Shown piece by piece: positions 37,930 to 55,387 of a DNA stretch of 59,719 nucleotides (position 1 is the first letter of the stretch; every line of letters begins with the position of its first letter). A program made the position numbers and the translations under genes. Source of the stretch: Bacteroidota bacterium (GTDB taxonomy: Bacteria; Bacteroidota; Bacteroidia; Bacteroidales; JAAUTT01); NCBI GenBank assembly GCA_021779665.1, contig JAJYAG010000020.1:1-59719 (forward strand). The letters run 5' to 3'. Below the pieces are notes generated by a model. The model was not told where the DNA came from and made no database searches. It saw nothing but the letters and a program-made list of their open reading frames with translations.

Positions 37930-40323
37930 TCATTCATATCTCAGACTCTCTACCGGGTTCCGGCTGGCAATCCGGGAATAATTAAATGCAGCAATAATAG
38001 CTACCAGCAAAATAATACTCAAACTGCAACCTGCAAAAATTACCCAATGGAGATGGATTTTCCCTGCAAAGTTCATCATCCATTTATTAGCTGTAAACCA
38101 GGCGGCAATAAGTCCCATCGCCACTGCAGGAATGACAATACTTTCCAGGTCGTAAATAAACATTTTTAAAATTCCCGGCAGGGTGGCTCCGTTGATCCGA
38201 CGAATCGCCAGCTCTTTACTGCGACGGTTAGCTTCATTAGCCGTATAACCCAGCAATCCTATAGTGGTAATAAGTAAAATTATGAAATTGCCAATGATGA
38301 TAGAATCGCGAAATCCGCGTTCACCCAGGTAAAGATTTTGCCGTTCTGTTTCCAGGCTCTTCACAACAGCATCCTGATGTTCAACAAATTCATTGAACAC
38401 GGCTGTCAGCTTTGGAGTAAGATTGTCGGTTATTCCATTTTGAACTTTAATCATCACATTAAAGGAACGCGAGGGATTTTCATCAATAAATTTCTCAATT
38501 CTTTCTTCGGGCATGAAAAAGAATACCGATGGTCGGAAATCGGGGTCAGCCATGGAGTTGATAGTAAAATCGGGAAAAGTACCTTCAATGGTAGTTAACC
38601 CGTGCTCGCTGATATTTATTTGTTTTCCGGTCACACCATCCTTCCAACCGGTATTCATTGCCAGCATTTCAGCACCTTTTTTACTAATAAGCACATTGTT
38701 TGCTGCAGACGTTGTTGAAAAGCCTTTACCATCAATCACAGGGATATTGAGTATCGAAAGGTAATTTTCGTCGATCCAGTAAAAATCGGCAATGTTGAAT
38801 AATTCTTTCTCTTGGCCCGGAAGGGAAATATTGTTACCCGAAGCTCCATTTGTGGGTACATTATAGCCTAATCCTATTCTTTCCAACTCGGGCATAGCTC
38901 GTAATTTATTCAGTAAAGTGGAAATTTTACTCCCGTTCATTCCGCTTGTTGAACCAAAATAAATGCCCTCAGTCCGGTAACCATGATCTGCCTTTCTCAT
39001 TTTTTCGTATTGTAATGTTACGATAACCAGCATTGTAAAAATGAAGGAAGCTCCTATAAACTGGAACGAAAGCAGAATCAGTTTCCACTTGGTTCTTTTC
39101 TGCTGATAATTACGGAAGGCTGTTGCAACGGGAATCCTTGAATAAAAACGCCCTGATAGATAACTTACAGAAAAAGCAAGGACAACAACCAGTGTTAGTA
39201 GAGGAACAATTATGCCGGGATTTATCATGGACGAAAGACTATGTCCCAGTTGAGCCTCGGCAATAGGTTTGATAAGCAGGATGAGAAGCAAAGCTCCCGT
39301 AAGCGAAATAAAGAATAGTAAAGCTGTTTCGGAGAATATAAGCTTGTATAAGTTCCAGGCGTGAGCTCCGCATGTTTTGTATATGGCCGAAGTTTTGGCT
39401 CTGTTTATCAATGCACTTAGGGTTAGCAAAATATAGTTCATGAGAGAAACAAACAACACTGCAAATGCAATGGCACTGAGGATGACTATCATGTCTTTTG
39501 CTTCGCTGGCCCGTATTTTATTGATAGGATGGAAAGAATACTTCAATACTCCGTTCTGTTCCTGTTCAAATTTGATAATGTCCTGGTTCTTTTCCTGCAT
39601 CTTGCGAACAGCAGGCTCCAGACTCCCGGGCGATACTCCCGGAGCCAATCTTACGCAGGCATAATAACGGTCATTCCCTAACCAGTTGTTTGACCCGTCC
39701 CACCGGAACAGTTGACCAGTTGAGGCCATGGATATGAGTATGTCGTAATTATAGTTAGCATTTTCGGGTAATGCCTCAAATATTCCATTTATTGTAAACT
39801 TCTTACCAGGATATTCCTTCAGTTCAATTACTTTTCCAATAACATCTCCGCCCATTGTCCCGGCAATCTTATCGGAAACCATACACTTCATGGGGATTCT
39901 GAATATTTCTTCTGGATCTCCTGCGATGATTCTTCTGGGAAGAACATCAAAAACATGCTCGTCGGCAAGAGAAAAGTCGGCCTTGTACTTTAAATCACCG
40001 GAGTAAAATATGGAGGAGCCAATGGAATTTAGCCGGGTTGCTGCTTCAATACCAGGAACTTCAGCTTTTAACCCAGGGGCTATGGCACCACTTACACGAT
40101 TATTGCTCTCCAGCTTATCAGAAGCTTTGTCAAATTTAAAGTTTTCGTAAACCGCATAAGTGCGGTCGGCTTCAGGATAAAAATCGTCGAAGCTGTAATA
40201 ATAAAAGACTTCCGACAGCAGCAGTATTCCAAAAGCCAGTCCTGCTATCAGAGAAACGATACGGGTAATGGAATGCTCTCCTTTTCTTGGCAATCTACGT
40301 AAGGCAAATTTTAAGTTATTCAT
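37930..40323 (-). CDS. FtsX/MacB-type ABC transporter permease 1 (most distal of the array)
   Basis: This 797-aa permease has the double-FtsX plan: an N-terminal helix (about 22-42), a large periplasmic MacB_PCD-type domain (about 45-275), three helices (about 280-395), a fourth helix (about 415-440), a second periplasmic domain (about 445-675), and three C-terminal helices. It ends in SRNPVESLRYE. It is the most divergent member. The conserved coupling sequence RTKEIGIRKVNGA is RSKELAIRRINGA at the C-terminal half and RAKTSAIYKTCGA at the N-terminal half. It lacks the near-identical C-terminal block of its neighbours. It should rely on the array's single ATPase. Substrate unknown. Confidence 0.88.
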   Translation of the reverse strand: MNNLKFALRRLPRKGEHSITRIVSLIAGLAFGILLLSEVFYYYSFDDFYPEADRTYAVYENFKFDKASDKLESNNRVSGAIAPGLKAEVPGIEAATRLNSIGSSIFYSGDLKYKADFSLADEHVFDVLPRRIIAGDPEEIFRIPMKCMVSDKIAGTMGGDVIGKVIELKEYPGKKFTINGIFEALPENANYNYDILISMASTGQLFRWDGSNNWLGNDRYYACVRLAPGVSPGSLEPAVRKMQEKNQDIIKFEQEQNGVLKYSFHPINKIRASEAKDMIVILSAIAFAVLFVSLMNYILLTLSALINRAKTSAIYKTCGAHAWNLYKLIFSETALLFFISLTGALLLILLIKPIAEAQLGHSLSSMINPGIIVPLLTLVVVLAFSVSYLSGRFYSRIPVATAFRNYQQKRTKWKLILLSFQFIGASFIFTMLVIVTLQYEKMRKADHGYRTEGIYFGSTSGMNGSKISTLLNKLRAMPELERIGLGYNVPTNGASGNNISLPGQEKELFNIADFYWIDENYLSILNIPVIDGKGFSTTSAANNVLISKKGAEMLAMNTGWKDGVTGKQINISEHGLTTIEGTFPDFTINSMADPDFRPSVFFFMPEERIEKFIDENPSRSFNVMIKVQNGITDNLTPKLTAVFNEFVEHQDAVVKSLETERQNLYLGERGFRDSIIIGNFIILLITTIGLLGYTANEANRRSKELAIRRINGATLPGILKMFIYDLESIVIPAVAMGLIAAWFTANKWMMNFAGKIHLHWVIFAGCSLSIILLVAIIAAFNYSRIASRNPVESLRYE

Positions 40324-40445: not shown

Positions 40446-42869
40446 CTATTCATACCTCAGACTTTCCACCGGGTTCCTGGTTGCTGCCCGCCAGCTTTGC
40501 CAGCTTACAGTTATAAGAGCTATTGCCAATGCAATAATTCCCGCTGCAGCAAACACCCACCAGCTCATATCTGTTTTATAGGCGAAATTCTGGAGCCATT
40601 TATGCATGGCATACCAGGCAATAGGGCAGGCGAGGATGAAAGCGATAAACACCCAACGTAGAAAGTCTTTGTTAAGCATGGCAACTATAGTTAAAGTTCC
40701 TGAACCATTCACCTTTCGTATACCAATTTCTTTTGTCCGGCTTGTAATAATGAAAGAAGCAACTGCAAATAAACCCATGCACGAAATCAGAATTATTATA
40801 AAAAGAATAAAACTTAAAAGCTTTTGCTGCTTGATGTAATTAGCATACAAACTTTTATAAAGCATTCCAATAGGTTCAATTTCGGGTGTATTTTCCGGAG
40901 CAAACTGATGGAACACGTCTTTTACAGCCGATACGGCTTCATCCATCTTCCCTTCAGCGTATTTTACTGATAGGGATGACAGAAAAAAGTCATCTTTATA
41001 AATCATTACCAAGGGCTTTTCATTTATCTCCAAAGATGCTATATAGGTATCTTCGACAACACCAATGATATATCCTTGTTTGATCCAACCTGTTTCGAAG
41101 TAAAAATATTGAAAAGGCTTGCCAATTGCTTCACTGGGTTTGGTAAATCCCAGATAATGCAATGCTGTTTCGTTAATGATATACTTTGGGATGTATTGAC
41201 CAGGCTCGGTTTCAGTAAAATCATCGCCGGCAAGAAATCGTATGCCATAAAAAGTATTGAAATTATGACTCACCGGCAACATGTAAATCTTTTTATTTTC
41301 GGGAGCCTTATTGTCGATTGTGAAATTGCTGCAGGCAAAAGGATCTTTTCCCGGAAGATACCAATGAAAAGTCATATCTTTTATCACCGGTCTTTTAATT
41401 AACTCCTGTTTAAAATTCCTGAAATTTGATGTGATTTCGCGGGGAAGATTCCCGATAGTTAAAATGTTATCCTGGTTTTTGCCCAAACGGTTTTTAAGGG
41501 AATAGCTAATTTGCTTTGAAATAAACAGCGTTGCAATAATCATGGCAATAGCAACGGTAAACTGTGCTAAAACTAGCCCTGTACGCACTTTGCCCTCCTT
41601 TCTTCCAAATACAAACGTGCTTTTTGAATGACTTTCCATTGACTTCACGGGAAGGTTGTTTCGAAGCAAAAACATAGGGTAGAGACTACATAAAACTCCC
41701 ACCAGAATAAAAGCAGCAGTAAAAAACAAATAGTAATGTAACCCAAAAGACTCTGATATTGGCGAAACTATCTGAAGCCAACCTTTCAATTTATCCGAAA
41801 ATAAGGCAAGCAAAAAAACACCGATAAAAACTGAAACAAATGATGTAATCAGACCTTCAATAATTAGTAAGTAAGCAATGGCTCGTTTTCGTGAGCCCAA
41901 AGTATTATTGATAAGAATATATTTATGCCTGTTCTGGAAAGCGGCCAGCTGCATGTTTACGTAATTGACAAAGACAATGATTAACAATAGTAATCCGGCT
42001 ATTTTGAGTGAAAAAACCAGTTCGGCATTCCCATTAGTTTCAATTTCCAGAAGTTTTGAAGAATGCAGATGAATGTCAGTAACTGGCTGCAAATGAAATT
42101 TTATTCCTTTTTGCTGTTCAGAGGTAAGGTATTTTTTGCCGAAACTCTCAAACTTCTTCTTCAGATCCTCGGCGGATGCTTTTTCCTTAAGCAGGAAGTA
42201 CAAATAAAAAATAGAACTGAAATTTTGGGGATTATCGAAACTAACAAGGTACTGAGGGTGCAGATGGCTGTTTGGCGGAAAGTCGGGCATTATTCCGGTT
42301 ATGGTATATTGCATGATGCTGGTATCGTTTCTGTATATCAGCAATGGTTTTCCCAAAGGATTTATTCCCGGATAATATGTTTCGGCAAAGGACTTACTCA
42401 GCACTGCACTTTTAGGCTCTTTGAGAACATCAGAACTGTTTCCTTCCAAGAGTTTGACATTAAAAGCATGGAAAAAATTTGAATCTGTTTCGAAGGCCTG
42501 CTTCGCATCAAATTTTGTATCACCACATTTCACGCTCAGGCTCTGCGATGGAGACAGCCGTGCAATCGATCCGGAGATCCGGAGTATGGATTCTACTTCA
42601 GGAAAATAGCCATAAAAATTACTTATCCAAGGTTCAAAATTCACTCTCGCAAAATCCCTTGAGGCTTCTCCGTCAGTATACTCAAAACTAATACGATACA
42701 AGCGGTTGGAATTTTCATAGCTTCTGTCGTAACTCTCTTCGTATCTGACCCACGAACCTATAAAAACTGTGACTGCAAATACCAACCCCAACCCCGTAAC
42801 ATTAATTATAAATATTCTGTTGTTCTTTAGGATGAATCTGATTACGAGTTTTACTAAAAATGAAAACAT
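40446..42869 (-). CDS. FtsX/MacB-type ABC transporter permease 2
   Basis: At 807 aa this is the longest member of the array, with the same double periplasmic domain plan. The N-terminal helix is near 21-41 and the first periplasmic domain contains YGYFPEVESILRISGS and YYPGINPLGKPLLIY. The C-terminal coupling region RTKEIGIRKVNG is intact, although it continues as SGTLTIVAML. The last ~57 residues (WYAMHKWLQNFAYKTDMSWW onward, ending ATRNPVESLRYE) are almost the same as in permeases 3, 4 and 6. The gap to permease 1 is 122 bp and that to permease 3 is 71 bp. The function is transport or mechanotransmission with the ATPase at 52512; substrate unknown. Confidence 0.9.
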   Translation of the reverse strand: MFSFLVKLVIRFILKNNRIFIINVTGLGLVFAVTVFIGSWVRYEESYDRSYENSNRLYRISFEYTDGEASRDFARVNFEPWISNFYGYFPEVESILRISGSIARLSPSQSLSVKCGDTKFDAKQAFETDSNFFHAFNVKLLEGNSSDVLKEPKSAVLSKSFAETYYPGINPLGKPLLIYRNDTSIMQYTITGIMPDFPPNSHLHPQYLVSFDNPQNFSSIFYLYFLLKEKASAEDLKKKFESFGKKYLTSEQQKGIKFHLQPVTDIHLHSSKLLEIETNGNAELVFSLKIAGLLLLIIVFVNYVNMQLAAFQNRHKYILINNTLGSRKRAIAYLLIIEGLITSFVSVFIGVFLLALFSDKLKGWLQIVSPISESFGLHYYLFFTAAFILVGVLCSLYPMFLLRNNLPVKSMESHSKSTFVFGRKEGKVRTGLVLAQFTVAIAMIIATLFISKQISYSLKNRLGKNQDNILTIGNLPREITSNFRNFKQELIKRPVIKDMTFHWYLPGKDPFACSNFTIDNKAPENKKIYMLPVSHNFNTFYGIRFLAGDDFTETEPGQYIPKYIINETALHYLGFTKPSEAIGKPFQYFYFETGWIKQGYIIGVVEDTYIASLEINEKPLVMIYKDDFFLSSLSVKYAEGKMDEAVSAVKDVFHQFAPENTPEIEPIGMLYKSLYANYIKQQKLLSFILFIIILISCMGLFAVASFIITSRTKEIGIRKVNGSGTLTIVAMLNKDFLRWVFIAFILACPIAWYAMHKWLQNFAYKTDMSWWVFAAAGIIALAIALITVSWQSWRAATRNPVESLRYE

Positions 42870-42940
42870 AAGCGATTTCTTGTCAGATGGTTTTCGTTAA
42901 ATTATATATCATAGCAATGTTCAAAGCTGTACCTGATCGA

Positions 42941-45322
42941 TCACTCATACCTCAAACTCTCCACCGGGTTCTTGGTTGCTGCCCGCCAGCTTTGCCAGCT
43001 TACTGTAAGCAAGGCAATAACCAGCGCAATAGCGCCGGAAGCAGCGAACACCCACCAGCTTAAATCTGTTTTATAGGCAAAATGCTCCAGCCATTTGTGC
43101 ATAGCAAACCAGGAAACAGGGCATGCAATAAGGAAAGCGATTCCAACCCATTTTAGAAAATCCCTGTTAAGCAGGGTCATCACCTGGAAAGAGCGGGCAC
43201 CATTTACTTTACGGATGCCTATTTCCTTTGTGCGTTGCTGGGTCTCGTAGGCAGCAACAGTAAATATGCCTGTAGTTGTAATAAATAAGGCAATGATGGT
43301 GAAGATGAGGTAAATCTGACTGAGTCGCTTTTCCTTCCGGCTCAGGGTTTCAACTTCCTCTTTGAGGAAATTGTAGCTGAACTCTTCTCCCGGATTAACT
43401 TTTTTGAATAATGCCGATACTGCCTGCAGTCCACTTTCAAGCGAACTCTCTTTGAATCTGATAAGAAAACTCATTCTGATATCCTCAAAATAAACCATAA
43501 ACATGGGTTGAGGTTTGCTGGAAAGATGCTGATAATTAAAATCTTTCACCACACCAATAATTTCATATCCAACACTGTCTTCATTACTCCTTTGAAGTCT
43601 GCTCTCATGAATATCTTTTATTCCCCAGTATTTTTTGGCAGCTTCGTTAATTACAATTTTATTCATGCCTGGGCGATCCACCTGAGCATCAAAAAAACGT
43701 CCTTCGGTTAATTGTAATCCCAGTACTTTCAGGTAACCAGGTTGAACGCCCAATCCTTTTTCGCTCAAATAATCCATGCCGCTGCCCATTAATTTCCAGG
43801 AACCCATTATAGGAGGGTTGATCGGCCCATCTCCCTGGGCAAAGGCTTCTATCGCAGGAATAGATGCCAGTTCGTTTCGTATATATTGATAGCTGTTCTG
43901 CTTTTCAGTTTCCATTCTCATTCTTTCCTCCTCATTTCCAGGGGAGTTTGGTTTATTCCGGTACATACTTACCCTGACAACATTTTCCGTATTAAATCCA
44001 AGATCTTTATGTAACATAAACGAAAGTTGCTTGAATATTACCAGTGTGGCCACTATGCAGGCTATGGTAAGCGTAAACTGAATAGTAACGATTGTTTTTT
44101 GGCTTGTAAGGAAATTTCCTGAAAATACCTCCTTATTCAGACTGTCTCTGATGGTGACTCCCGAAGTTATTATGGCAGGGTAAATCATGGCCAACGCAAA
44201 CAAAACCAATAAAATGATAAGGTTTAATGCTGTAATTGTCAGGGCCGATGGTGCCAGCGCAACCTTTGTAAATGCGTTAAAATGAGGAAGGATAACAACG
44301 TAGGCAAAAGTGACGATAAGAAACGACAAAAATATAAGCAATGCAATCTCGACTATTTTCTGAGCAATGAGTTCCCGCTTTTTGGTTCCAAGCGTTTTAT
44401 TCAGTCCGATATATTTAATACCATCGTTTATCTGAAGAACCTGAAAGCCGCTGAAATTAAAAACCGTTATTACAAAAACAATCAGCATAATAATGCTTAA
44501 AACATACACATCTTTCTTATTACCGAAATGCGAAAAGATGAACTGGAAAAGAAAATTTGGGGTTTCATAAAAATATATGTCATTGAAGGGCATCAGACCA
44601 AGTTTACTTCCTTTAAAATAGGAATCGCTCAGATTTTCGATTTTTTTCTCAAACTCTTTCCGGTTAAACTTTTCCCCGGCTAATAGAAAGTCAGCACCCG
44701 GTCTTTGGAAGGAACCAGAATAACCTGGGAGGATGATGTCAAAAGTAACAGAACTGTTGGAAGGCAATTTTTTTACAACTCCTTTTACAGTGAATGTTTT
44801 AGTCTCGTTGGTATTTACTTTAATTAACTGCCCGACAGGATCCTTATCGCCAAACATTTTACGGGCAAAATCTTCTGTAATAACAGCAGCAGTGGGGCTT
44901 GCAAGTATTGATGTTTTATCCCCGGTTAAAAGGTTAAAGTCGAAAATACTGAAAAAAGTGCTGTCGGTTATAAGGACTTCGGGCGAAAATGAAGATTGGT
45001 CCGTGGATACATTTATTGCCCCATTCGAAAACTTCTGGATTGTCGTCAGGCTTTTCAGTTCGGGATAGTCTTTGGGGTTGAAATTAATTGCATTTTTGGC
45101 AGAGAAGGGATCGAGCTGACTTTCAGGAGAAATCCTGATGGTCATCATATAAATGTCCTTTCTATGTTTATGGAAACCATTCATGGAGATTTCATTATAG
45201 ACATAGGAGAATAGAAGCGATATGCACAAAGCCCCCAGTGAAACCGTGATAATACCTCCGGCAAATAGCAACCAGCGCGCCTGAATTCTCCTGATAGCCA
45301 GTTTTAAAGAATATTTTATCAT
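42941..45322 (-). CDS. FtsX/MacB-type ABC transporter permease 3
   Basis: This 793-aa member has the same membrane plan. The first periplasmic domain holds DYPELKSLTTIQKFSNGAI and FARKMFGDKDPVGQLIKVN, the F.G.dPvGk motif of MacB_PCD domains. The coupling sequence RTKEIGIRKVNGARSFQVMT is intact. The C-terminus (WFAMHKWLEHFAYKTDLSWW to ATKNPVESLRYE) is close to those of permeases 2, 4 and 6 with several substitutions. It is 34 bp downstream of permease 4. No premature stop or frameshift is seen. Confidence 0.9.
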   Translation of the reverse strand: MIKYSLKLAIRRIQARWLLFAGGIITVSLGALCISLLFSYVYNEISMNGFHKHRKDIYMMTIRISPESQLDPFSAKNAINFNPKDYPELKSLTTIQKFSNGAINVSTDQSSFSPEVLITDSTFFSIFDFNLLTGDKTSILASPTAAVITEDFARKMFGDKDPVGQLIKVNTNETKTFTVKGVVKKLPSNSSVTFDIILPGYSGSFQRPGADFLLAGEKFNRKEFEKKIENLSDSYFKGSKLGLMPFNDIYFYETPNFLFQFIFSHFGNKKDVYVLSIIMLIVFVITVFNFSGFQVLQINDGIKYIGLNKTLGTKKRELIAQKIVEIALLIFLSFLIVTFAYVVILPHFNAFTKVALAPSALTITALNLIILLVLFALAMIYPAIITSGVTIRDSLNKEVFSGNFLTSQKTIVTIQFTLTIACIVATLVIFKQLSFMLHKDLGFNTENVVRVSMYRNKPNSPGNEEERMRMETEKQNSYQYIRNELASIPAIEAFAQGDGPINPPIMGSWKLMGSGMDYLSEKGLGVQPGYLKVLGLQLTEGRFFDAQVDRPGMNKIVINEAAKKYWGIKDIHESRLQRSNEDSVGYEIIGVVKDFNYQHLSSKPQPMFMVYFEDIRMSFLIRFKESSLESGLQAVSALFKKVNPGEEFSYNFLKEEVETLSRKEKRLSQIYLIFTIIALFITTTGIFTVAAYETQQRTKEIGIRKVNGARSFQVMTLLNRDFLKWVGIAFLIACPVSWFAMHKWLEHFAYKTDLSWWVFAASGAIALVIALLTVSWQSWRAATKNPVESLRYE

Positions 45323-45356
45323 AGGTTAGAAATTATTTCAAGGTCTTAGTTTATAT

Positions 45357-47741
45357 TTATTCGTAGCGGAGCGACTCCACCGGGTTCCTGGTTGCTGCCC
45401 GCCAGCTCTGCCAGCTTACTGTTACAAGAGCTATCAGCATTGCAATGCCTCCTGCAGCTGCAAATACCCACCAGCTTAATGAGGTTTTATAGGCAAAATT
45501 CTCGAGCCATTTGTGCATGGCATACCAGGCAATGGGGCAGGCGAGGAGGCATGATAGAATTACCCATTTCAGGAAGTTACCATTGAGCATTACAAGAATT
45601 TCGGACATGCGCGCCCCGTTTACCCTGCGTACACCAATCTCTTTGGTTCTCTTTTCGGCTATAAATGCTGCCAGACCAAAAAGTCCCAAACTGCTGATAA
45701 CTATAGCTATGAAAGTAAACAGTGACACCAGCTTGCCAATGCGTTCCTCTTCTTTAAATTTTTCATTATACTGATCGTCCACAAACGCATAGTCGAAGGG
45801 AGCAGCAGGTACTATTTTGTTTATTACATTTTCAATTTTGGGCAAAGCTTGTGACGCACTAACGGCAGGATTAATCCGGATATAAAGATGCTTCTGATCC
45901 TCTTCTGAGGGTATAAGTATGGTAGGAACGGCAGGATCGTAGGGAGAACCTTTTACCATATCCTTCACAACTCCAAGTATTGTGTAGCCTGGTTTGTCGT
46001 TGTACGATGGATTGGTCCTGTTGATAGTTTCTCCGATGGGCGATGGTAGTTCCATCATTTTCAGTGCCGATTCGTTAATAATAATGGTGGATAAATCGCT
46101 TTTCATTTCTCTTGAGAAGTCGCGACCCTGCAGGAATTGGAGTCCTATAGTCTTACAATATTCAGGAGATACTCTCACCACATTAAAAGATGGACTTTCT
46201 TCCTTCACCTTTTGATTTTTCCATGTGAAATCGGAGTTCCACCCTTTGGTAGTTGTTACAGGATAGTTGGATGCTGTTATTTCATAGATTACGCCGGTGT
46301 TTTTAAGTTCATCCCTCAAGGTGAGGAACTTGCCTTTGTAATCGGGAGTATTCATGTAAAGCGTTAACAGTCCTTGGGGTGTATATCCTACAGGTCGGTT
46401 TTTTGCATGCAGAATTTGTTTGTATATGATTAGAGAACCGATTATTAATGCAATGGAAATTGTAAATTGAAAAACAACGAGCAATTCTCGTGAAGAGATT
46501 CCAAGACGGGTTTTACTATGTTGTCCCGAAATAGCTTTTAAAGGCTTCAGTTTTGAAAGATAAAAAGCAGGGTAAATTCCGGCGAGCAGGTTTACGATAA
46601 ATAAAAAGGCTGTGGATATGGTCCAGAATTGCCAGCTATTCCAGGGAATTTGCAAATTCTTACCCGATATTTGATTAAACCAGCCGAGCGATAACATTAA
46701 AGTAGCGAGCGCAATTAAGTATGCAATCAGAATTGTCAACATCGACTCGTTTAAGAAATGACGTATAATCCACAAACGAGTTGAGCCAAAGGTCTTACGT
46801 ATTCCGATTTCCCGGGCATAAAAGTCGGATCGTGACGTACACAGGTTTACATAATTGATACAAGCCAGTATAAGGATGAGAAATCCAATCGCTATCAGTA
46901 TTTGCAGCATTTCAAAGCGACTGTTCGATACCTCGGCACCGTTCAGGAACGACGAATGCAGATGCCACCTGTTCATAGGATGCAGAAAAAGTTCGGTGTT
47001 TGTTTTTGGATCGTGTTGGCGCAGGGCATGCCTGATTGTTTGAGAGGTTTCCTGAAAGCTGGCTCCTGGTTTCAATTGAACCAGCAGATACATGTTAAAA
47101 TTATTCCACACGTTGAGGTTTGACCAGTCACCAAGGTACCGGTCCAGCGGGGCAAGATATTTTGCTTCGGCAAATTCGGTATTGGCTGGTAAATCCTTAA
47201 ACACACCGGTTACCATTAAATCATAAGTAGCATCCATCTTTACCATCTGTCCAACTGCTTCTGAATCGCCAAAAAGCTTGTGAGCAACCGATTCCGACAA
47301 AAAAATTGAGTTAATATCATTTAATCCGTTTTGAGTACCCGATACCATTTCCAGGCTGAGCATCCGGGGAGCATCGGGCTGCATAAAATAACCTTTCTCC
47401 ATGTGCTTTTTTTCGCCCGAACTTATGATACGCTCCTCCACTCTTCCCCGCACCAGGGCAATTCCCGAAAAATGGTTTTCGTATTGGTCTTTGAGTAGTG
47501 TTCCCATGCCGGTTGTAACAATATCGCTTGTATAAATATCCCCATGATTAACATTCTCGTTACGCATTACTTTGGCAATGGAACTATAGTTGGTATGATA
47601 ACGGTTAAAAGACAATTCATCGTGAACCCAAAGTCCAATCAGCAGGGTAACCGCAATACCAAGCATGAGACTTATAATTTTCACATAAATAAAACCTTTA
47701 TTGTTGATAAGGCCTCTGAAAAAGAGAACAAGTGTTTTCAT
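45357..47741 (-). CDS. FtsX/MacB-type ABC transporter permease 4
   Basis: This 794-aa member has the N-terminal helix near 18-38, the periplasmic motif KLFGDSEAVGQMVKMD, the first-half coupling sequence YAREIGIRKTFGST and the second-half sequence RTKEIGVRRVNGARMSEIL, all intact. Its last 56 residues differ from those of permease 6 at a single position, and the matching DNA shares a 32-base identical run (45415-45446 with 50224-50255), although the periplasmic domains have diverged widely. An 82-bp gap with a solo repeat arm separates it from permease 5. Confidence 0.91.
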   Translation of the reverse strand: MKTLVLFFRGLINNKGFIYVKIISLMLGIAVTLLIGLWVHDELSFNRYHTNYSSIAKVMRNENVNHGDIYTSDIVTTGMGTLLKDQYENHFSGIALVRGRVEERIISSGEKKHMEKGYFMQPDAPRMLSLEMVSGTQNGLNDINSIFLSESVAHKLFGDSEAVGQMVKMDATYDLMVTGVFKDLPANTEFAEAKYLAPLDRYLGDWSNLNVWNNFNMYLLVQLKPGASFQETSQTIRHALRQHDPKTNTELFLHPMNRWHLHSSFLNGAEVSNSRFEMLQILIAIGFLILILACINYVNLCTSRSDFYAREIGIRKTFGSTRLWIIRHFLNESMLTILIAYLIALATLMLSLGWFNQISGKNLQIPWNSWQFWTISTAFLFIVNLLAGIYPAFYLSKLKPLKAISGQHSKTRLGISSRELLVVFQFTISIALIIGSLIIYKQILHAKNRPVGYTPQGLLTLYMNTPDYKGKFLTLRDELKNTGVIYEITASNYPVTTTKGWNSDFTWKNQKVKEESPSFNVVRVSPEYCKTIGLQFLQGRDFSREMKSDLSTIIINESALKMMELPSPIGETINRTNPSYNDKPGYTILGVVKDMVKGSPYDPAVPTILIPSEEDQKHLYIRINPAVSASQALPKIENVINKIVPAAPFDYAFVDDQYNEKFKEEERIGKLVSLFTFIAIVISSLGLFGLAAFIAEKRTKEIGVRRVNGARMSEILVMLNGNFLKWVILSCLLACPIAWYAMHKWLENFAYKTSLSWWVFAAAGGIAMLIALVTVSWQSWRAATRNPVESLRYE

Positions 47742-47793
47742 TTCTTCTCAGTTATGTAATAAAAATTGCAATCTATTTTAATCTAAGCTCCTA

Positions 47794-47821
47794 AGTCCCC
47801 CATTGGGGGATTTAGGGGGCC
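47794..47821. repeat. Solo arm of the MITE-like palindromic repeat
   Basis: A CCCCC/GGGGG hairpin followed by ATTTAGGGGGCC matches the right arm of the element at 37798-37926 (37901-37926), with one base deleted from the AATT centre. It sits immediately downstream of the permease 5 stop codon, as the full element sits immediately downstream of permease 1. Confidence 0.7.
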
Positions 47822-47823
47822 TA

Positions 47824-50142
47824 TCACTCATACCTCAAACTCTCCACCGGGTTTCGCGTTGCTGCCCGCCAGCTTTGCCATACAACCGTAAACAACATGA
47901 GCATCAGGGCAAGCATGCCGCCTTGCATAAATAAAATGGCATCCAGTTTAATATGCTTTGGAAACATCGAAAGATATACCCGGGAAATGACGATGGTTAT
48001 TGGCGACGCCACAATAATTGCTATCAGAACCTGGGTAAGCAGACCCTTTGACAATTGGTTTATAATCCTGAATGAAGAAGCGCCACATACTTTTCGTATT
48101 CCAATTTCTTTCCTGTGCCTTTCGGCAATGAACACCGAGAGCCCAAACAGCCCGAAAAGCGCTGTAATTATGGAAATGATAAAGAATGTATTTACAAGGT
48201 ACTGCGCCGAATAATACGATTTAGCCATTTCTTCTCCATAATCGAGGTGGTATTTAAGTTCTACGGGATAATCCGGATTTATCTTTTGCAGGGTCGCGTT
48301 TATATAGTTAAATGCCTGTTCGCGTTTTGACGGATCTATTCTGAATAAAAGATTTGTATTCTGCTCTTTACTGGGCAGGATCAATTGCGGCATTTCTGTA
48401 AAGATGGGCGGCAAAGCCATGTACGAATCCACAACCCCAATAATACGGCACTGCTTGTTTTCGGCTAACATTATACGCCCCACCGGATCGGCATATCCAA
48501 GTACCTCCGCTGTTTTCCTGTTTATAACAATGGCATTCTCAGAATCGGAACTATAGTCCTTCGAGAAAAAGCGGCCTTCCAGCATTTTAATCTGATAAAC
48601 CTCCAGGTAATCCACATCGGCATACAAACGATTAGCAGGAAGCTTATTATCCTTCTCTTTCCAATCGGTCGAAACGCTAAAACCCATCATTGGTAAAGCA
48701 CTAGCCCACGATACCCCAAGGATGGATGGCTCTTTCTGCATTTCGGCTTTTACTTTGTTTAAATCGCCCCAGGCATATCCCGTTGTGCAAATAACATTTT
48801 CGGGATTACAACCCAGAACATTCTCATCAGTCAGATACCTGTTTTGCTTGTTAAGCACCATCATTATCTGAATGAATATTACAGCAATTATGAACTGGAG
48901 GGTAGTGAGCGTCCAGAGCGACCTGTTTTTGCCTAACGACAGTGTATTGGAATTTCTGAAATAATCGATAGATCGGGATGACGAAATTTTTATTGCGGGA
49001 TAAACGCCCGAAAGCAATACGGTTGCAGTAAACAATCCCAGAATAATAAATGCCAGTTCCCAACTAAAAGCCAGAGAGATATGGGTATCCATAATCGCAT
49101 TAAAATCGGGAAGAACCATATAAAGCACCATCAGAGCCAGGATAAAACTCAGGGCAGTTGAGAATGCTGTGTCGCAGATGAGTTGTTTAAATATTCCAAA
49201 ACGCCGGGCGCCATTTACGATTCGGGCTCCTATTTCTTTATTTCGTGCCGAAAACAGAATATTTGTAAGGTTCACATAGTTGATACACGAAATCACCAGA
49301 ACCAGGATTCCGCCAATCAAGAATGCAAGCAACTTACCATAGTTATTAAAATAATCACCATTCAGGTGCATGTCTTTTATAGGCAATAAAAAAGGATAAG
49401 CATCGATTACGGTTACAGGTAGTTTAAAATCCGCTGCAATCTTCTTGTTAAGCGCTTTTATGTCTGTTCCGGGTTTAAGGAGAAGGGTATTCATGTAGGC
49501 GGTAGATTCATACTCTGTATATTTCCAATGAGAGAACCTTTTGGCAACTGTAAAAGGTACAATTATATCGCCCTGGACTTCGGTATTCGAAGGGAAATTC
49601 TTATAAACCCCGGTTACTGTAAAATTCACTTTTTGTCCATCCAGAATAAAAAGCATGGTTTTCCCAACAGGATCAGCTCCTGCAAAATATTTCCCTGCTG
49701 TTTTCTCGGATATTACTATGGATGCAGGATCGTACTTCAGTTGTCCTCCTGTAAAGGGGACAGTGTATATTTTGAAAAACGCCGAATCGGCAAAGAGAAC
49801 TTTTTTTTCGTTAAAAAGGTTATCGCCTACCCTCACGGTTGCGTCGTAAAGTCTGGAAATCGAATTCATTTCAATTTCGGGGAACATATTGCGCAGCGCG
49901 TCACCTTCGGGGCCCCAGGTGGTCTGAATCCATTTTATAGATCCAAAATCGCCGGAGATATAAACCCTGCATATCCGGTCGGCATTTTTGTGGCTGTTTT
50001 CGTAGGTCAGCTCATGATACGAATAGACAATAGCCAGCAATGCACAAGCCAGTCCCAATGTTAAACCAAGGATATTGATGGAAGAAACCAATCGGTTTTT
50101 CCTGAGGTTTCGCCAAGCCATAAGAAGGTTGATCTGTAGCAT
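47824..50142 (-). CDS. FtsX/MacB-type ABC transporter permease 5
   Basis: At 772 aa this is the shortest member. The first helix is near 21-42 (INILGLTLGLACALLAIVYS). The periplasmic motif KYFAGADPVGKTMLFI and both coupling sequences (KEIGARIVNGARRFGIFK and KEIGIRKVCGASSFRIIN) are intact. The C-terminal helices are unrelated in detail to the shared block of permeases 2, 3, 4 and 6, apart from the end VWQSWRAATRNPVESLRYE. It thus looks like an older lineage within the array. It lies 23 bp downstream of permease 6. Confidence 0.9.
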   Translation of the reverse strand: MLQINLLMAWRNLRKNRLVSSINILGLTLGLACALLAIVYSYHELTYENSHKNADRICRVYISGDFGSIKWIQTTWGPEGDALRNMFPEIEMNSISRLYDATVRVGDNLFNEKKVLFADSAFFKIYTVPFTGGQLKYDPASIVISEKTAGKYFAGADPVGKTMLFILDGQKVNFTVTGVYKNFPSNTEVQGDIIVPFTVAKRFSHWKYTEYESTAYMNTLLLKPGTDIKALNKKIAADFKLPVTVIDAYPFLLPIKDMHLNGDYFNNYGKLLAFLIGGILVLVISCINYVNLTNILFSARNKEIGARIVNGARRFGIFKQLICDTAFSTALSFILALMVLYMVLPDFNAIMDTHISLAFSWELAFIILGLFTATVLLSGVYPAIKISSSRSIDYFRNSNTLSLGKNRSLWTLTTLQFIIAVIFIQIMMVLNKQNRYLTDENVLGCNPENVICTTGYAWGDLNKVKAEMQKEPSILGVSWASALPMMGFSVSTDWKEKDNKLPANRLYADVDYLEVYQIKMLEGRFFSKDYSSDSENAIVINRKTAEVLGYADPVGRIMLAENKQCRIIGVVDSYMALPPIFTEMPQLILPSKEQNTNLLFRIDPSKREQAFNYINATLQKINPDYPVELKYHLDYGEEMAKSYYSAQYLVNTFFIISIITALFGLFGLSVFIAERHRKEIGIRKVCGASSFRIINQLSKGLLTQVLIAIIVASPITIVISRVYLSMFPKHIKLDAILFMQGGMLALMLMLFTVVWQSWRAATRNPVESLRYE

Positions 50143-50165
50143 GATTTGGGAGTTTTAAGGTTTAT

Positions 50166-52499
50166 TTATTCGTATCTGAGAGATTCCACCGGGTTTCGCG
50201 TAGCTGCTCGCCAACTTTGCCAACTTACTGTTACAAGAGCTATCAGCATTGCAATTCCTCCAGCAGCTGCAAAAACCCACCAGCTTAAATCCGTTTTATA
50301 GGCAAAATTCTCAAGCCATTTATGCATGGCGTACCAGGCAATAGGGCAGGCGAGGAGGAAGGCGATGGCTACCCATTTAATAAAATCGCGGTTGAGCATG
50401 GCCATGACTTCGGTGGTGCGGGCACCGTTAACTTTGCGGATGCCGATTTCTTTCACTCTGTTCAAGCATATTAGGAAAATATGACCCAGGATACCCATGC
50501 AGGTCAAAACAATGGCAATCAGGCAAAAGAATGTAACCGACCTGCTTAGCCGTTCTTCTTTTTCGTACATGGATTGGAACTGATCGTCGTAGAAAGAGAA
50601 AATAAAAGGTTCTCCCGGCGAAAGCTTTTTCCACATTCTTTTGAGCTGATCCATTTGCCCGCCAGTATTTCCTTCGGCCAGACTTACTGATAATACATTC
50701 GCATCGGGTGTTTGTGAGTAAACAATTGCTAAGGGTTCAATAAGGGAGTGTAATGATTCGAACATAAAATTTTTCACAACTCCAACCACCTCATAACCGC
50801 CCTCACTTATATCCAGTTTTTTACCATTAAAATCGCTCCATTGATATTGTTTCAAAGCTTCTTCGTTCAGCAAACAGGTCTTTTCCATATCGCCGGTCAG
50901 AAAATCACGACCATCGAGCAATTCTATGCCCATAGTTTTCAGATAATCACTGCCGGCTTTTATAAGGTTAATATCGAAGCTGGTCTTTCCTTCGCCAACT
51001 GCAAATCTCCAGTTAATCATGCCGGGACAGCCGTTACTGAGGGTGCTGCTTTTAACAAAAGGAAGATTATTTGTTTCCTGCAGTAAGGTTTGGGTGTTAG
51101 GGTACTTATAGGGAATGTCGATTCGTAACAGCTTTTCTTTATTAAACCCCAGATCGGTATGTTTCGCAAAATTTAATTGTTTGAAAATAACCATTACAGA
51201 AGTTATGAGGGCTATAGATACCGTAAGCTGGAAGATTAGCAATAACTGCCGGCTCAGTTGTTTCTGGTTTTTGTTTCCTCTGAATCCCGAAAGGAAGGAA
51301 GTAATGTTAAACCTGGAAAGTACATAAATGGGGGCAAGGCTGTTGATAAGAATTATAGCAACAACAACACCCAAAAACAGGGGGCCGGTAGAAAGCAGAT
51401 CATAAAACCCGAAATGGATTTCCTTTCCGAAAATGATTTTGGAATATGGAAGTGCAAGCGCGGTAACAATTGTGGCTATTATAAAAGAGAACAGCACACC
51501 TATTGAAACCTCCATAAAGATATATTGAACCAGATTTTTCCATTTTGCACCGTTTATTTTATTAATTCCAATCTCCTTCATTTTGGCAAATTGCATCGAA
51601 ACCGAGTAGTTTAAATAATTGATGCTGGACAGAATAAGAATAAGCAATGCAATCACGATGAAAATTTTCAGCATGAAGGGATTGCCTTTCGCATGACGAC
51701 TTTTTACTTTGAGTGTGGAAAGGTAAATATCGGAGAGGTTTTGTATGCCAATACTATCGATATCAAGCGAATGAGACCTGATGGTTTTATTAAGGTTGTT
51801 TAATAAGCTGTTGGGGTCGGCTCCATTCTTTAATTGAACAAAAATATTAGTGGGATTATATACCAAGCCTCCCGAATGTGTCCTGTTCATTCTAAACTTT
51901 TCGTTTTCGCTGTTCATTATAATGTCGGCTTTGAACGTTGAATTTGCAGGCAATTCGTTGATTATTGCAGTAACCGTTCCAAACATAAAATTGCTGATGT
52001 TGATTGGTTGTCCCAATGGATTCTCACCACCATATAATTTCTGCGCCAGTGATTTTGAAATTGCGACGGCTTCTTTCCTGTCGAAAGGTTTATCGACCAG
52101 CTTTTCAGTAACCTCCACTTTAAAAATGTCAAAGAAATTATTTGTCGTGGCAAGTATATGCTCAACCTGGGTGTCGGTATGCTTTTGTTCATTTTTGGCG
52201 ATCAGGGCAATCCCCGAACTATAATCAAGCGGACAAACATCCTCAACTTCCGCGAAGTTTTTTGCCAGCAGCGAAGTAAGATCATAATGGATGTTGGCCC
52301 TTACATTTTTGGCATCGTAAAGCCTGTAAATTTGCCTATGATTTTTAAAGCCATGGTTTACAGTTTTTTCCGAATGATAGAATAACCCAATCAGGATAAA
52401 GGCAGCAAAGCCTATGGCAAAACCTCCCATTATCAGAATGGTGTAAATCCTGTTTTTCAAAAGGTTCCGGAAGGCGAGTATCAGGTTGAAGCGTATCAT
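50166..52499 (-). CDS. FtsX/MacB-type ABC transporter permease 6 (ATPase-proximal)
   Basis: This 777-aa permease is the first after the ATPase gene, only 12 bp from it, so the two are almost certainly co-translated. The layout is as for the others: a helix at about 20-41, a periplasmic domain with KLYGGENPLGQPINIS, coupling sequences MKEIGINKINGAKWKNLV and VKEIGIRKVNGARTTEVM, and a C-terminal block nearly identical to that of permease 4. No adaptor protein or outer-membrane channel adjoins, unlike MacAB-TolC. Roles seen in the family include lipoprotein release, peptide or antibiotic export, and mechanotransmission across the envelope. Confidence 0.91.
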   Translation of the reverse strand: MIRFNLILAFRNLLKNRIYTILIMGGFAIGFAAFILIGLFYHSEKTVNHGFKNHRQIYRLYDAKNVRANIHYDLTSLLAKNFAEVEDVCPLDYSSGIALIAKNEQKHTDTQVEHILATTNNFFDIFKVEVTEKLVDKPFDRKEAVAISKSLAQKLYGGENPLGQPINISNFMFGTVTAIINELPANSTFKADIIMNSENEKFRMNRTHSGGLVYNPTNIFVQLKNGADPNSLLNNLNKTIRSHSLDIDSIGIQNLSDIYLSTLKVKSRHAKGNPFMLKIFIVIALLILILSSINYLNYSVSMQFAKMKEIGINKINGAKWKNLVQYIFMEVSIGVLFSFIIATIVTALALPYSKIIFGKEIHFGFYDLLSTGPLFLGVVVAIILINSLAPIYVLSRFNITSFLSGFRGNKNQKQLSRQLLLIFQLTVSIALITSVMVIFKQLNFAKHTDLGFNKEKLLRIDIPYKYPNTQTLLQETNNLPFVKSSTLSNGCPGMINWRFAVGEGKTSFDINLIKAGSDYLKTMGIELLDGRDFLTGDMEKTCLLNEEALKQYQWSDFNGKKLDISEGGYEVVGVVKNFMFESLHSLIEPLAIVYSQTPDANVLSVSLAEGNTGGQMDQLKRMWKKLSPGEPFIFSFYDDQFQSMYEKEERLSRSVTFFCLIAIVLTCMGILGHIFLICLNRVKEIGIRKVNGARTTEVMAMLNRDFIKWVAIAFLLACPIAWYAMHKWLENFAYKTDLSWWVFAAAGGIAMLIALVTVSWQSWRAATRNPVESLRYE

Positions 52500-52511: not shown

Positions 52512-53204
52512 TTAAACTGCACTTGCAGTTTTCGTTTTCGATTCATCAAACAACAATCCGTCAGCCATTCGCACAATCCGGTGGGCGTATTTGGCAAACT
52601 CCTCGTTATGTGTCACCTGGATAATGGTCATTCCCTCTTCATTAAGTTGTTTGAGCATTTCCATAATCATGCGGCCCTGGTCGGTATGGAGGTTTCCGGT
52701 TGGCTCATCGGCAAGCAATAACCGTGGTTTACCAGCAATAGCACGGGCAATGCCTACCATCTGTTGCTGTCCGCCTGATAGCTGTTGCGGAAAAAGATCT
52801 TTTTTGGCAACAATGTTGAAGCGGTCGAGCAGGTCGGCTACCATGGCCTGCCGTTCCTTGGTTTTAAGGCCTTTATAAACAAGCGGGGTTTCTATGTTTT
52901 CGTAAACTGTTAGTTCTTCAATCAGGTGATATGCCTGGAAGATAAAGCCAATATAATCACGGTGATAATCGGTCTTTTGTTTCTCTTTTAATTTATGTAC
53001 CGGTTGATCCAGAAAATAATACTCGCCTTCGGAAGGTTCCTCGAGCAGACCAATAATATTCAACAGAGTAGATTTACCAGCGCCACTGGGACCCATAATG
53101 GAAATAAACTCGCCCTCGGCAACTGTGAGATCAACATTTTTAAGGATAAAGGTTCTGTTGTATTTGTTATCGAAATACTTGCAGATGTTTTTTAGTGTAA
53201 TCAT
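52512..53204 (-). CDS. ABC transporter ATP-binding protein (MacB/LolD/FtsE type)
   Basis: From the ATG at 53204 (MITLKNICKYF) this is a 230-aa type VII ABC ATPase. Walker A is GPSGAGKST, the Q-loop is IGFIFQAYHLI, the signature is LSGGQQQMVGIARA, Walker B is LLLADEPTG and the switch His is in VTHNEEF. An upstream frame to 53267 has no family-like sequence. It is first in the array and the only ATPase there, so it may serve six permeases. The usual signature is LSGGQQQRVAIARA; here Met replaces Arg after QQQ and Gly replaces Ala. Expression probably starts in the 436-bp region shared with the divergent sigma factor gene. Confidence 0.93.
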   Translation of the reverse strand: MITLKNICKYFDNKYNRTFILKNVDLTVAEGEFISIMGPSGAGKSTLLNIIGLLEEPSEGEYYFLDQPVHKLKEKQKTDYHRDYIGFIFQAYHLIEELTVYENIETPLVYKGLKTKERQAMVADLLDRFNIVAKKDLFPQQLSGGQQQMVGIARAIAGKPRLLLADEPTGNLHTDQGRMIMEMLKQLNEEGMTIIQVTHNEEFAKYAHRIVRMADGLLFDESKTKTASAV

Positions 53205-53297
53205 GGATGGTTGTTTTTGGAAGTGAAGCAATTTGAATACCGTATGTTGTATAATGCAGTAAAACAATAATTTAATGAATGATAAAAATATATCCTT

Positions 53298-53578: not shown

Positions 53579-53640
53579 GCTTGGGGTTATTATGTAAAAA
53601 ATACACAAAAAGATCGATTATTGATCTTATATTCAGAATA

Positions 53641-54225
53641 ATGGAAAAATGGGAAAGTAATTATTCGGCTTCTTTATTTTTCACTGAGAAAGATTTTGAC
53701 ATCCTTTTCAAGAATCTTTATCCTCCCTTATGTGGTTTTGCCGGTCGTATTCTTTCCAACCTTAGCGAAGCCGAGGAGTTAGTGCAGGATGTTTTTGTAA
53801 ACCTTTGGCTTAACCAATCGCGGATACATATTCAAACTTCCCTGAAGGCTTACCTGTATCAAATGGTTCATAATGCTGCCATTAACCGGCTGGAGCATCT
53901 GCGCACACAAAAGAACCAGGTAAACAAGGTTGCTACGGAGCAGGAGTGGCTCGAAATCCATATGAGCTATTCGGTTAACGAATCGTTTCTCGAGATACTT
54001 GAGTCGAAGGAAACCGAAGCCAGAATCCTCAAAGAGCTGGAACAACTGCCTGATAAATGCCGGGAAATTTTTCAGTTAAGCCGGTACAGGAACCTTACCA
54101 ATGCCGAAATTTCCAAAAAGTTAAATTTATCCCCGGTAACCGTGCGGGTGCAGTTATTCCGGGCCTTAAACCATCTGCGGAAAGCATTACAAAATATTTC
54201 TTCTTTTTTTCTTTTTTCTCTGTAA
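53641..54225 (+). CDS. ECF RNA polymerase sigma factor (Bacteroidota SusCD/FecI-like type)
   Basis: From the ATG at 53641 the protein is 194 aa, normal for ECF factors. Region 2 includes LFKNLYPPLCGFAGRIL and AEELVQDVFVNLWLN (core binding and -10 recognition). Region 4 includes LPDKCREIFQLSRYRNLTNAEISKKLNLSPVTVRVQLFRALNHLR, quoted here only as its start LPDKCREIFQ and its HTH LNLSPVTVRVQL. It is followed by a FecR anti-sigma gene and susC, so it should switch on the susCD locus when the SusC transporter signals substrate binding. It may autoregulate. Confidence 0.94.
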   Translation: MEKWESNYSASLFFTEKDFDILFKNLYPPLCGFAGRILSNLSEAEELVQDVFVNLWLNQSRIHIQTSLKAYLYQMVHNAAINRLEHLRTQKNQVNKVATEQEWLEIHMSYSVNESFLEILESKETEARILKELEQLPDKCREIFQLSRYRNLTNAEISKKLNLSPVTVRVQLFRALNHLRKALQNISSFFLFSL

Positions 54226-54268
54226 ACGTTTTCGAAAGTAATCCTGTCAACATAACAGAATCTGTATT

Positions 54269-55387
54269 ATGAATGAAAGTTTTAATATACCGGAGGATAT
54301 TTCTATCCTTATTATTGAGTTTCTTGAAGGAAATATAGCTGATGAAAACCTTAGCCGGTTAAACCATTGGCTAAAGGAAGATGATGCGCATTTAAAGCAG
54401 TTCAATGCACTCAAATCGGTATGGCTGATGAACAGTAAAGCCTTACCATACGAAGCTCCAAAGATTGATAGTGATTTAGATAAAGTTAAAGATAAGATTG
54501 CCAATAAGGTCAAACCCGAAGTTCGTCATTTATGGACCTTCAAAAAGGTAGCAGCCTCGTGGATCGTATTTCTTGTAACAGGAGGCCTGCTGGGCCTATT
54601 GGTTTCGAGGGAGAAAACGGAGCCTGTGGTTCCGGCGTTAACTACCATCACGGCGCCGGTAGGTGCCAAGTCCATTGTAGATTTGCCCGATGGCAGCAAA
54701 GTATGGATAAATGCCGGAAGTACCATAACATATAATAATTCGTTCGGAAAGCTGAACCGCGATCTTAAACTGGTTGGTGAGGCATATTTCAGTGTTAAAA
54801 CAAATCCTTCGCTGCCTTTTATTGTAAAAACTTCGGATATTATGGTAAAAGCCATGGGAACAAAGTTCAACGTAAAAGCTTATCCCGAGGAAAAAACCAT
54901 TACAACCACCCTGGAGGAAGGGAAAATTATTGTGACTTCCCTGAAAAAGAAATCACCCGATAAGGTGGTCGAACTTAAGCCACGCGAAATGATAACCTTT
55001 ATAAAACAGCCAATGGAACCGGCAAAGGCAGAAACTCAACAGGAGCATGTTAATAAAAAAGGTTCTGAAGGCACTTTAAGTGAGATCATTCCCGAGGTGA
55101 AAACGGAGCTTCAGACATCGTGGAAAGATGCTACCTGGATTATTGAAGGAAAAACCCTTGGCGATTTGGCTCCCCTGCTGGAACGAAGATATAATGTGCT
55201 GATCAGTTTTGAGAAGACCGACATCAAACAGTTTAAATTCACCGGTAAAATTCAGAACGAGCCGATAGAGCAGATTCTCATGGCAATAGAGTTATCCTCT
55301 CCGGTTAAGTTCAGCATCAGTAACAATAAGATTTCGCTCTATCTGAATAAGGCCATGCTTGAGAAATATACTCAGAATACAAATTAA
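54269..55387 (+). CDS. FecR family anti-sigma factor with C-terminal DUF4974-like domain
   Basis: At 372 aa, it has a cytoplasmic N-terminal sigma-binding helix bundle (1-90), one transmembrane helix (about 93-112), a periplasmic FecR domain (about 125-230, with VDLPDGSKVWINAGSTITY and GEAYFSVKTN), a Pro/Glu/Lys-rich linker, and a C-terminal domain of the DUF4974 type (about 290-365, GKTLGDLAPLLERRYNVLIS). That domain resembles the STN fold and is thought to contact the transporter's N-terminal domain. The protein holds the ECF factor until SusC signals. Spacing from the sigma gene is 43 bp. Confidence 0.94.
   Translation: MNESFNIPEDISILIIEFLEGNIADENLSRLNHWLKEDDAHLKQFNALKSVWLMNSKALPYEAPKIDSDLDKVKDKIANKVKPEVRHLWTFKKVAASWIVFLVTGGLLGLLVSREKTEPVVPALTTITAPVGAKSIVDLPDGSKVWINAGSTITYNNSFGKLNRDLKLVGEAYFSVKTNPSLPFIVKTSDIMVKAMGTKFNVKAYPEEKTITTTLEEGKIIVTSLKKKSPDKVVELKPREMITFIKQPMEPAKAETQQEHVNKKGSEGTLSEIIPEVKTELQTSWKDATWIIEGKTLGDLAPLLERRYNVLISFEKTDIKQFKFTGKIQNEPIEQILMAIELSSPVKFSISNNKISLYLNKAMLEKYTQNTN

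Follow-up and report, generated by a model that had tools for sequence, protein, structure and literature searches.

Evidence for recurrent recombination at the shared 3' ends of tandem ABC permease genes in Bacteroidota

The 3' ends of the permease genes in tandem ABC transporter arrays of Bacteroidota very probably recombine recurrently, by conversion and module exchange centred on a 3' block that the genes have in common. The recombining ends would span roughly the last 60-80 codons, with homology over ~96 codons in Labilibaculum. Short conversion tracts would replace the 3' end of one gene with that of another, and exchanges with junctions in the block or at its edge would shift modules of intergenic DNA plus gene body among positions, arrays and species. 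The outcome would be a constant C-terminal part, freely diverging bodies and one ATPase serving all of them. Silent sites in the block are homogenised by genome, by array and by distance within the array, block trees are incongruent with body orthology, and related genomes have exchanged modules with some of the junctions inside blocks.

The permease array and its shared 3' block

The window (the whole 59,719-nt stretch of DNA analysed, whose positions serve as coordinates) carries one ABC ATPase gene followed by six tandem permease genes encoding 772-807 amino acids, numbered P1 to P6, all on the minus strand and transcribed in the order P6 to P1 (Table 1). The ATPase gene is located 12 nt upstream of P6 and its best NCBIfam model is DarD, at 252.6 bits and below the cut-off of 375. 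All six permeases have MacB_PCD and FtsX domains above the Pfam cut-off. A Foldseek search of the PDB with an AF2 model of P6 (pLDDT 85, pTM 0.80) returned Escherichia coli YbbP (9ge6, E 1.2e-19, TM 0.47) as the nearest structure and then MacB, with LolCDE and BceAB as lower-ranked matches. By their domains, and for P6 by its fold, the window permeases are classed as Type VII ABC permeases, and their pairing with the ATPase is predicted. The P6 model begins with TM1 (residues 17-45), a periplasmic domain, TM2 (274-305), a coupling helix (307-315), TM3 and TM4. Next come a helix of some length at residues 410-447 and another periplasmic domain, followed by TM6 (646-680), a second coupling helix (682-690), TM7 (695-730) and TM8 (740-767); residues 770-776 form a tail helix.

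The genome of the window (G000) contains 19 full-length members of the family, in arrays on contigs C246 (the window), C207 (four permeases) and C298 (three); the rest are apparently solitary, some of them near contig ends. Before the window ATPase (53581-55387) lie a divergent ECF sigma factor and then an ORF resembling an anti-sigma protein, a candidate. A 408-aa protein with Big_9/cadherin-like and DUF1349 matches is encoded between the ATPase and the permeases of the C207 array (L023, 1982-3208).

Table 1. Features of the permease array, in window coordinates
Feature	Position	Strand	Remarks
ABC ATPase	52512..53267	-	sole ATPase of the array; PF00005 1.7e-34
Permease P6, 777 aa	50166..52499	-	MacB_PCD + FtsX; first permease after the ATPase; AF2 model
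P6 3' block, last 58 codons	50169..50342	-	end of TM7, TM8, tail helix
P6 second coupling helix, residues 682-690	50430..50456	-	AF2 secondary structure; faded edge of homogenised tract in position profile
32-nt run in P6, identical to 45415-45446	50224..50255	-	sequence comparison
Permease P5, 772 aa	47824..50142	-	body without full block
P5 terminal ~20 codons in common with block	47827..47886	-	includes 27-nt run identical to P3
Permease P4, 794 aa	45357..47741	-	MacB_PCD + FtsX
P4 3' block, last 58 codons	45360..45533	-	nearest to P6 of 31 compared blocks
32-nt run in P4, identical to 50224-50255	45415..45446	-	sequence comparison
Permease P3, 793 aa	42941..45322	-	MacB_PCD + FtsX
P3 3' block, last 58 codons	42944..43117	-	nearest to P2 and C207_10948
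Permease P2, 807 aa	40446..42869	-	MacB_PCD + FtsX
P2 3' block, last 58 codons	40449..40622	-	block comparison
Permease P1, 797 aa	37930..40323	-	outside homogenised set
P1 tail RNPVESLRYE	37933..37962	-	whole extent of P1's sharing

Over their last 58 residues, P2, P3, P4 and P6 are 81-98% identical in amino acids and 75-87% in DNA across the six pairs; the preceding 58 residues are 50-59% identical and the remainder 22-26%. P4 and P6 agree at 57 of the 58 positions, and their 32-base run is exact, with mismatches at both borders. These results bear out a preliminary description of the window, which had noted a single difference between the P4 and P6 tails, the 32-base run, the closeness of P2 and P3 in the same block and wide divergence outside it. 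Its range of 40446-50400 omitted P1, most of P6 and the ATPase, and its statement that P1 and P5 have only NPVESLRYE in common with the block is right for P1 and wrong for P5, in which ~20 codons and the run identical to P3 are shared.

Similarity at silent sites was expressed as the same-codon fraction, the share of identical degenerate residues using the same codon, and was compared with two null models, one based on codon usage and a stricter one based on position-specific codon preference. Across the six pairs of P2, P3, P4 and P6 the fraction is 0.44-0.68 in the block and 0.36-0.45 in the rest. In the P4/P6 block 32 of 49 degenerate codons are the same, whereas the codon-usage model predicts 16.8 (0 of 2000 draws) and the position-specific model 21.1 (P=0.0005); for the longest identical run P is 0.007 and 0.031, respectively. 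Same-codon counts exceed chance under both models for P4/P6, P2/P4, P2/P3 and P3/P5 (P5 tail, 18 of 25 against 8.2-9.7 expected, P<=0.0005), those of P2/P6 and P3/P4 are weakly above the stricter model (P=0.04), and the P3/P6 block has no excess over chance (18 of 41; P=0.15 and 0.58).

Block dS is 0.82 for P4/P6, 0.71 for P2/P4, 0.96 for P2/P3, 1.08 for P3/P4 and 1.15 for P2/P6. In codons -110 to -59 the first three of these pairs have values of 3.5, saturated and 1.6, and the bodies of P4/P6 and P2/P4 are saturated. The preliminary description had proposed recombination between the 3' ends and had taken equal silent divergence in the block and the rest as a sign of purifying selection on the protein alone; silent divergence is instead lower in the block than upstream or in the body for these three pairs, and P3/P6 is saturated in the block too. 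The block values together with the saturated bodies indicate that the exchanges in the window are real but not very recent.

The strongly homogenised stretch runs from the end of TM7 through TM8 and the cytoplasmic tail helix. The earlier suggestion that the block is perhaps the part that meets the ATPase is right only in part: the second coupling helix is situated where homogenisation fades, and selection on the protein is enough to explain its conservation. We infer that what preserves the block is the need to match the ATPase common to the permeases, or the membrane bundle.

Silent sites and phylogeny of the block across species

Contigs were scanned with the last 75 residues of P6, and the best 80 of 515 confirmed stretches (72 loci) were combined with G000 and with G001, a genome of the same genus. 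After de-duplication this survey set comprised 299 permeases, 256 of them block-bearing, from 56 species. The survey left out L054 (a duplicate of the G001 record), genes whose last 600 nt were identical, the 43 of 299 permeases with block identity to P6 below 0.55, and any pair in which fewer than 60 degenerate body residues were identical. The loci were picked by the resemblance of their blocks to that of P6, and the sampling favours block-bearing arrays; survey species and pairs are not independent.

Among survey pairs with bodies less than 30% identical, the same-codon fraction of the block is 0.43 between species, 0.49-0.50 between different loci of one species and 0.55-0.56 within an array, and that of the body stays at 0.41-0.43 in all of these classes, close to what codon usage predicts. 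The pattern of concerted evolution, with silent identity of the block higher within than between genomes and the bodies as control, is seen in 48 of the 51 testable species of this survey of the best 80 of 515 stretches; the direction is reversed in BH25, CarbA043 and fen958. Bodies are more alike within than between species in 37 of the 51, and the block excess is above the body excess in 47 (Wilcoxon 1.9e-8), the mean within-species excess being 0.127 for the block and 0.014 for the body. In a position profile based on a random 6000 of the between-species pairs, same-array pairs exceed pairs from different species by 0.10-0.17 at codons -1 to -60, 0.08 at -61 to -70, 0.06 at -71 to -80 and <=0.04 further upstream. 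Within arrays the same-codon fraction of the block is 0.585, 0.552, 0.530, 0.515, 0.463 and 0.391 for genes one to six steps apart (five pairs at six steps), with a flat body, and adjacent pairs are higher in 32 of 45 loci (p=0.001).

G001 holds an orthologue of P6 with a body 75% identical in amino acids (L035, 13795-16131; P6, 50166-52499). This orthologue stands third of four in its array, and P6 stands first in C246. It adjoins orthologues of two C207 genes of G000; because its array-mates match the C207 array, the P6 gene occupies different arrays in the two genomes. Between P6 and its orthologue the same-codon fraction is 0.51 in the body, 0.58 in codons -100 to -59 and 0.36 in the last 58, and the blocks are 70% identical in nucleotides with 15 of 42 same codons, which is chance level. 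The P6 block is nearest to that of P4 in the same array (0.87), and the block of the orthologue to that of B_C295_41206, its array neighbour (0.89); between the bodies of these two genes dS is saturated and dN is 0.85. An AU test on the block rejected the grouping of P6 with its orthologue (p=2e-6), as expected from the earlier proposal that the block should group by genome and not by orthology. Block orthology was rejected in all four pairs put to the AU test, the others being C207_5819 with B_C295_41206 (p=0.003) and two in a Labilibaculum set (p=0.004 and 0.006, from quick trees).

Two of four array orthologue pairs of G000 and G001 lose block orthology, C298_8697/B_C50b is mixed and C207_3230/B_C295_43806 keeps it; all four apparently solitary orthologue pairs keep it. 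Block trees at odds with body orthology and decay with distance, two further marks of concerted evolution, are thus both present, with the C207_3230 pair keeping its orthology. Across the survey, orthologues with 90-100% identical bodies have same-codon fractions of 0.886 in the body and 0.781 in the block (n=9), those with 80-90% identical bodies 0.687 and 0.516 (n=12), and those with 70-80% identical bodies 0.543 and 0.508 (n=32); block and body are equal at 60-70% (0.46, n=57).

Purifying selection on the protein, perhaps with local codon preference, would by itself keep the block alike with no recombination. The protein of the block and coupling helix is indeed conserved between species too (amino acid identity of 0.59-0.89 per 10-codon bin over the last 60 codons), and codon agreement between species in the block exceeds the expectation from usage (observed/expected 1.30; 1.09 upstream). 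We nevertheless consider this explanation very unlikely, because silent identity varies with genome, array and distance while the bodies act as an internal control, because silent identity is lower in the block than in the body for the orthologues with 80-90% identical bodies, and because a near-identical orthologue pair from Labilibaculum, described below, differs mostly in the block.

Module exchange and array turnover in Labilibaculum

A direct case is provided by Labilibaculum euxinus A4 (L060) and Labilibaculum sp. K2S (L061). The body proteins of L060_10244 and L061_12659 are 99.6% identical, and 21 of the 28 nucleotide differences between the genes fall in the last 222 nt. The block of L061_12659 shares 99.4% identity with the block of L061_10292, its neighbour, the bodies being 22% identical, and the block of L060_10244 is nearest (97.7%) to that of its own neighbour L060_7910. 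Upstream the two loci are collinear at 91.5-92%, and this gene and the next are in swapped order. Inside the block of the gene preceding the moved unit there are no differences in the last 60 nt, one in the next 30 and then 3-5 per 30; the intergenic DNA is identical (15/15), and differences resume ~240 nt before the unit's own stop. Beyond what the preliminary description had claimed, whole gene bodies are exchanged too.

In all nine Labilibaculum-group genomes the locus begins with HlyD and ATPase genes, and in seven the array is followed by one and the same pair of genes (f5 and f6), G301 and G300 ending before them. Unlike the window, the Labilibaculum locus precedes the ATPase with kinase, sigma-54 regulator and HlyD genes. 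The permeases fall into 18 families at body identity of at least 60%, some of them partial genes, and are ordered ABCDEF, AGEF, DGEF, ABHIDF, ACBGJEF, KLGHM..N, CD.., FPQE and RF. Some adjacencies are kept, as is E-F in four genomes. G302 and G303, which are 99% identical on both sides, differ in the first permease (A versus D). In the locus set, the neighbours of orthologous permeases (bodies at least 60% identical) are orthologous in 4 of 112 comparisons, versus 319 of 494 when non-permease genes of these loci are compared at 60% or more (49 of 57 at 90% or more, 44 of 104 at 60-70%). Neighbour orthology was called at 50% for permease bodies and 45% for other genes, 42 comparisons with a gap above 600 bp were set aside, and the comparisons share loci and are not independent.

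Some modules are above the identity of their backbone (PB 99.7 versus 92.7%, PG 99.3 versus 92.3%, PH 98.7 versus 87.1%), with identical intergenic DNA (15/15, 71/71 and 38/38, respectively), and some are below it (PE 91.0 versus 98.2%). Module identity ends at about the previous stop codon for PG and PH; for PD it ends ~30-41 nt and for PB 60-90 nt into the previous gene. BLAST edges within permeases mostly lie 287-298 nt before a stop and mark only the start of block homology, which by codon count is beside the coupling helix. Clustering of blocks by genome in G303 and G297 holds for PE and fails for PF, the G297 PF block resembling G303 blocks (0.84-0.87) more than those of its array-mates (0.67-0.80).

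Two candidate rules were not convincing. Travel of the end of the previous block together with the module is clear for PB only; in the survey, the last 30 nt of upstream neighbours score 0.761 versus 0.743 in controls (n=45) and 0.883 versus 0.860 (n=12). Block replacement tracks a change of the downstream gene weakly, the block being above the body in 9 of 19 cases with the same next gene and 21 of 31 with a different one.

A Labilibaculum euxinus permease contains one in-frame TAA and is perhaps a recent pseudogene (L136; G296:C36:215423-217534). In the G298 array (L168/L169) a 616-aa partial permease, PN, lies between two copies of a 511-aa ORF (family f26), perhaps an insertion element. 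PI in the G299 array (L164/L165) resembles other blocks in no more than roughly its final 41 nt and, like P5 in the window, consists of a body joined to a bare tail.

Four of the nine Labilibaculum-group loci have a block without a body in the gap between the ATPase and the first permease, and two of these blocks are interrupted by internal stops. In the wider set there are 37 distinct stop-to-stop segments shorter than 300 aa that end in the tail motif, 33 of them shorter than 80 aa; 354 segments carry the motif overall, counting repeats from overlapping loci. G000 has one such remnant, in the corresponding gap on C298. Remnants include those at L162 (G303; stop at 5256), L171 (G297; 5173), L055 (2609) and L024 (minus strand, 13514). 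Three scars are 0.81-0.84 identical to each other and 0.69-0.90 to the blocks of their own arrays, values that favour neither homogenisation of remnants in the manner of genes, which would by itself eliminate protein selection as the cause, nor its absence. Directly before several tail remnants is a short palindromic element (TCCCCTTTAGGGGATTTAGGGG-like, read as KSPLGDLGV; L079 12640-12925 and 15380-15560, L103 10230-10430, L111 10600-10800, L119 11880-12050), possibly a REP-like element involved in making the remnants.

Site-specific recombination, with the tail DNA as the target of a recombinase in the manner of a shufflon or integron, would agree with the several junctions at or near a stop codon (PG, PH). 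We regard it as extremely unlikely: the codon-conservation comparison of 5000 between-species pairs found no conserved recombination site at the tail, whose codons are free between species (the last codon is GAA in 144 genes and GAG in 112), junctions also lie ~30-41, 60-90 and ~240 nt before a stop, and homology-driven exchange typically yields conversion tracts with distance decay. An assembly artefact, in which near-identical 3' blocks join wrong bodies and so fake order changes and block/body mismatches, is scarcely credible, for although most of the genomes are drafts or MAGs with within-genome identical runs of up to 179-188 nt, the single-contig genomes G303 (4.97 Mb contig, DGEF) and G297 (5.72 Mb, FPQE) still do not agree in the order and content of their arrays, misjoining cannot create 18 body families, and the runs between P4 and P6 in the window are <=32 nt.

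The lack of an invariant site and the varied junctions point to homologous recombination, presumably of the RecA type, as the agent of the recurrent exchange between 3' ends. Since a block flanks each unit of intergenic DNA and body on either side, permeases could be excised, inserted, permuted and swapped whole and in frame by homologous recombination. The 3' block may thus serve as a recombination anchor and the loci as hypervariable permease cassette islands with one fixed ATPase, integron-like without an integrase; we hold this reading tentatively, the balance lying marginally against it. Swaps would then occur within and between species, probably under pressure for varied exposed domains, and such islands, if real, would go beyond known concerted evolution. 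The exchange of bodies is presumably adaptive; selection would favour variety in the bodies and compatibility in the C-terminal part.

Significance and comparison with known systems

The process described here is concerted evolution, which is already known; its occurrence in permease arrays appears to be new. Among the matches listed from open-licence PMC papers, subscription papers excepted, there was no description of 3'-end homogenisation or module exchange in such arrays. Our results imply that cells can trade transporter variants yet keep a common tail, and suggest that the traded part is the bodies with their exposed domains and not the C-terminal part. Some Bacteroidota genomes carry dozens of such duplicated permeases without known function. 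Whole-gene similarity and gene-order orthology fail for these permeases because both 3' ends and order recombine, and caution is required with trees or family models built from the C-terminus of such proteins, which can follow the genome and not the gene. The modules also give a countable unit of exchange between species.

In the bab and hom paralogues of Helicobacter pylori, recombining ends in common surround variable parts. Excerpts of the literature describe concerted evolution of these outer-membrane paralogues; they are adhesins, with no shared-ATPase array and module turnover of the kind seen here. According to an excerpt of PMC5266723, surface proteins of Porphyromonas gingivalis, which belongs to Bacteroidota, undergo domain rearrangement and mosaic exchange between strains; these are gingipains and fimbriae, unlike the tandem permease array of the window.

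Closer in function is the darobactin exporter DarB/DarD, which like the window array has a separate permease and ATPase, and in Labilibaculum the likeness includes an HlyD protein. The window permeases miss the DarB cut-off (NF038008, 50-121 bits versus 700). The darobactin exporter has one permease, whereas the window array has six. ADOP (TIGR03434), also a duplicated permease, is the best NCBIfam model for all six window permeases, which score 131-288 bits versus a cut-off of 622. ADOP genes are not known to have an adjacent ATPase; one is present here. Two Dyadobacter genomes have 28 and 33 copies annotated as ADOP, according to an excerpt of PMC11573002.

The MacB_PCD and FtsX domains are common to the window permeases and the Type VII permeases E. 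coli YbbP (of YbbAP), MacB, LolC/E and BceB. YbbP is a duplicated single chain with two coupling helices, as stated in an excerpt of PMC12646458, and the P6 model is alike in both respects; sequence identity is 12-16%, and the extra linking helix pair of YbbP is not recognised in the P6 model. In contrast to these Type VII relatives, the window array has six permeases for one ATPase, and their 3' ends are homogenised.
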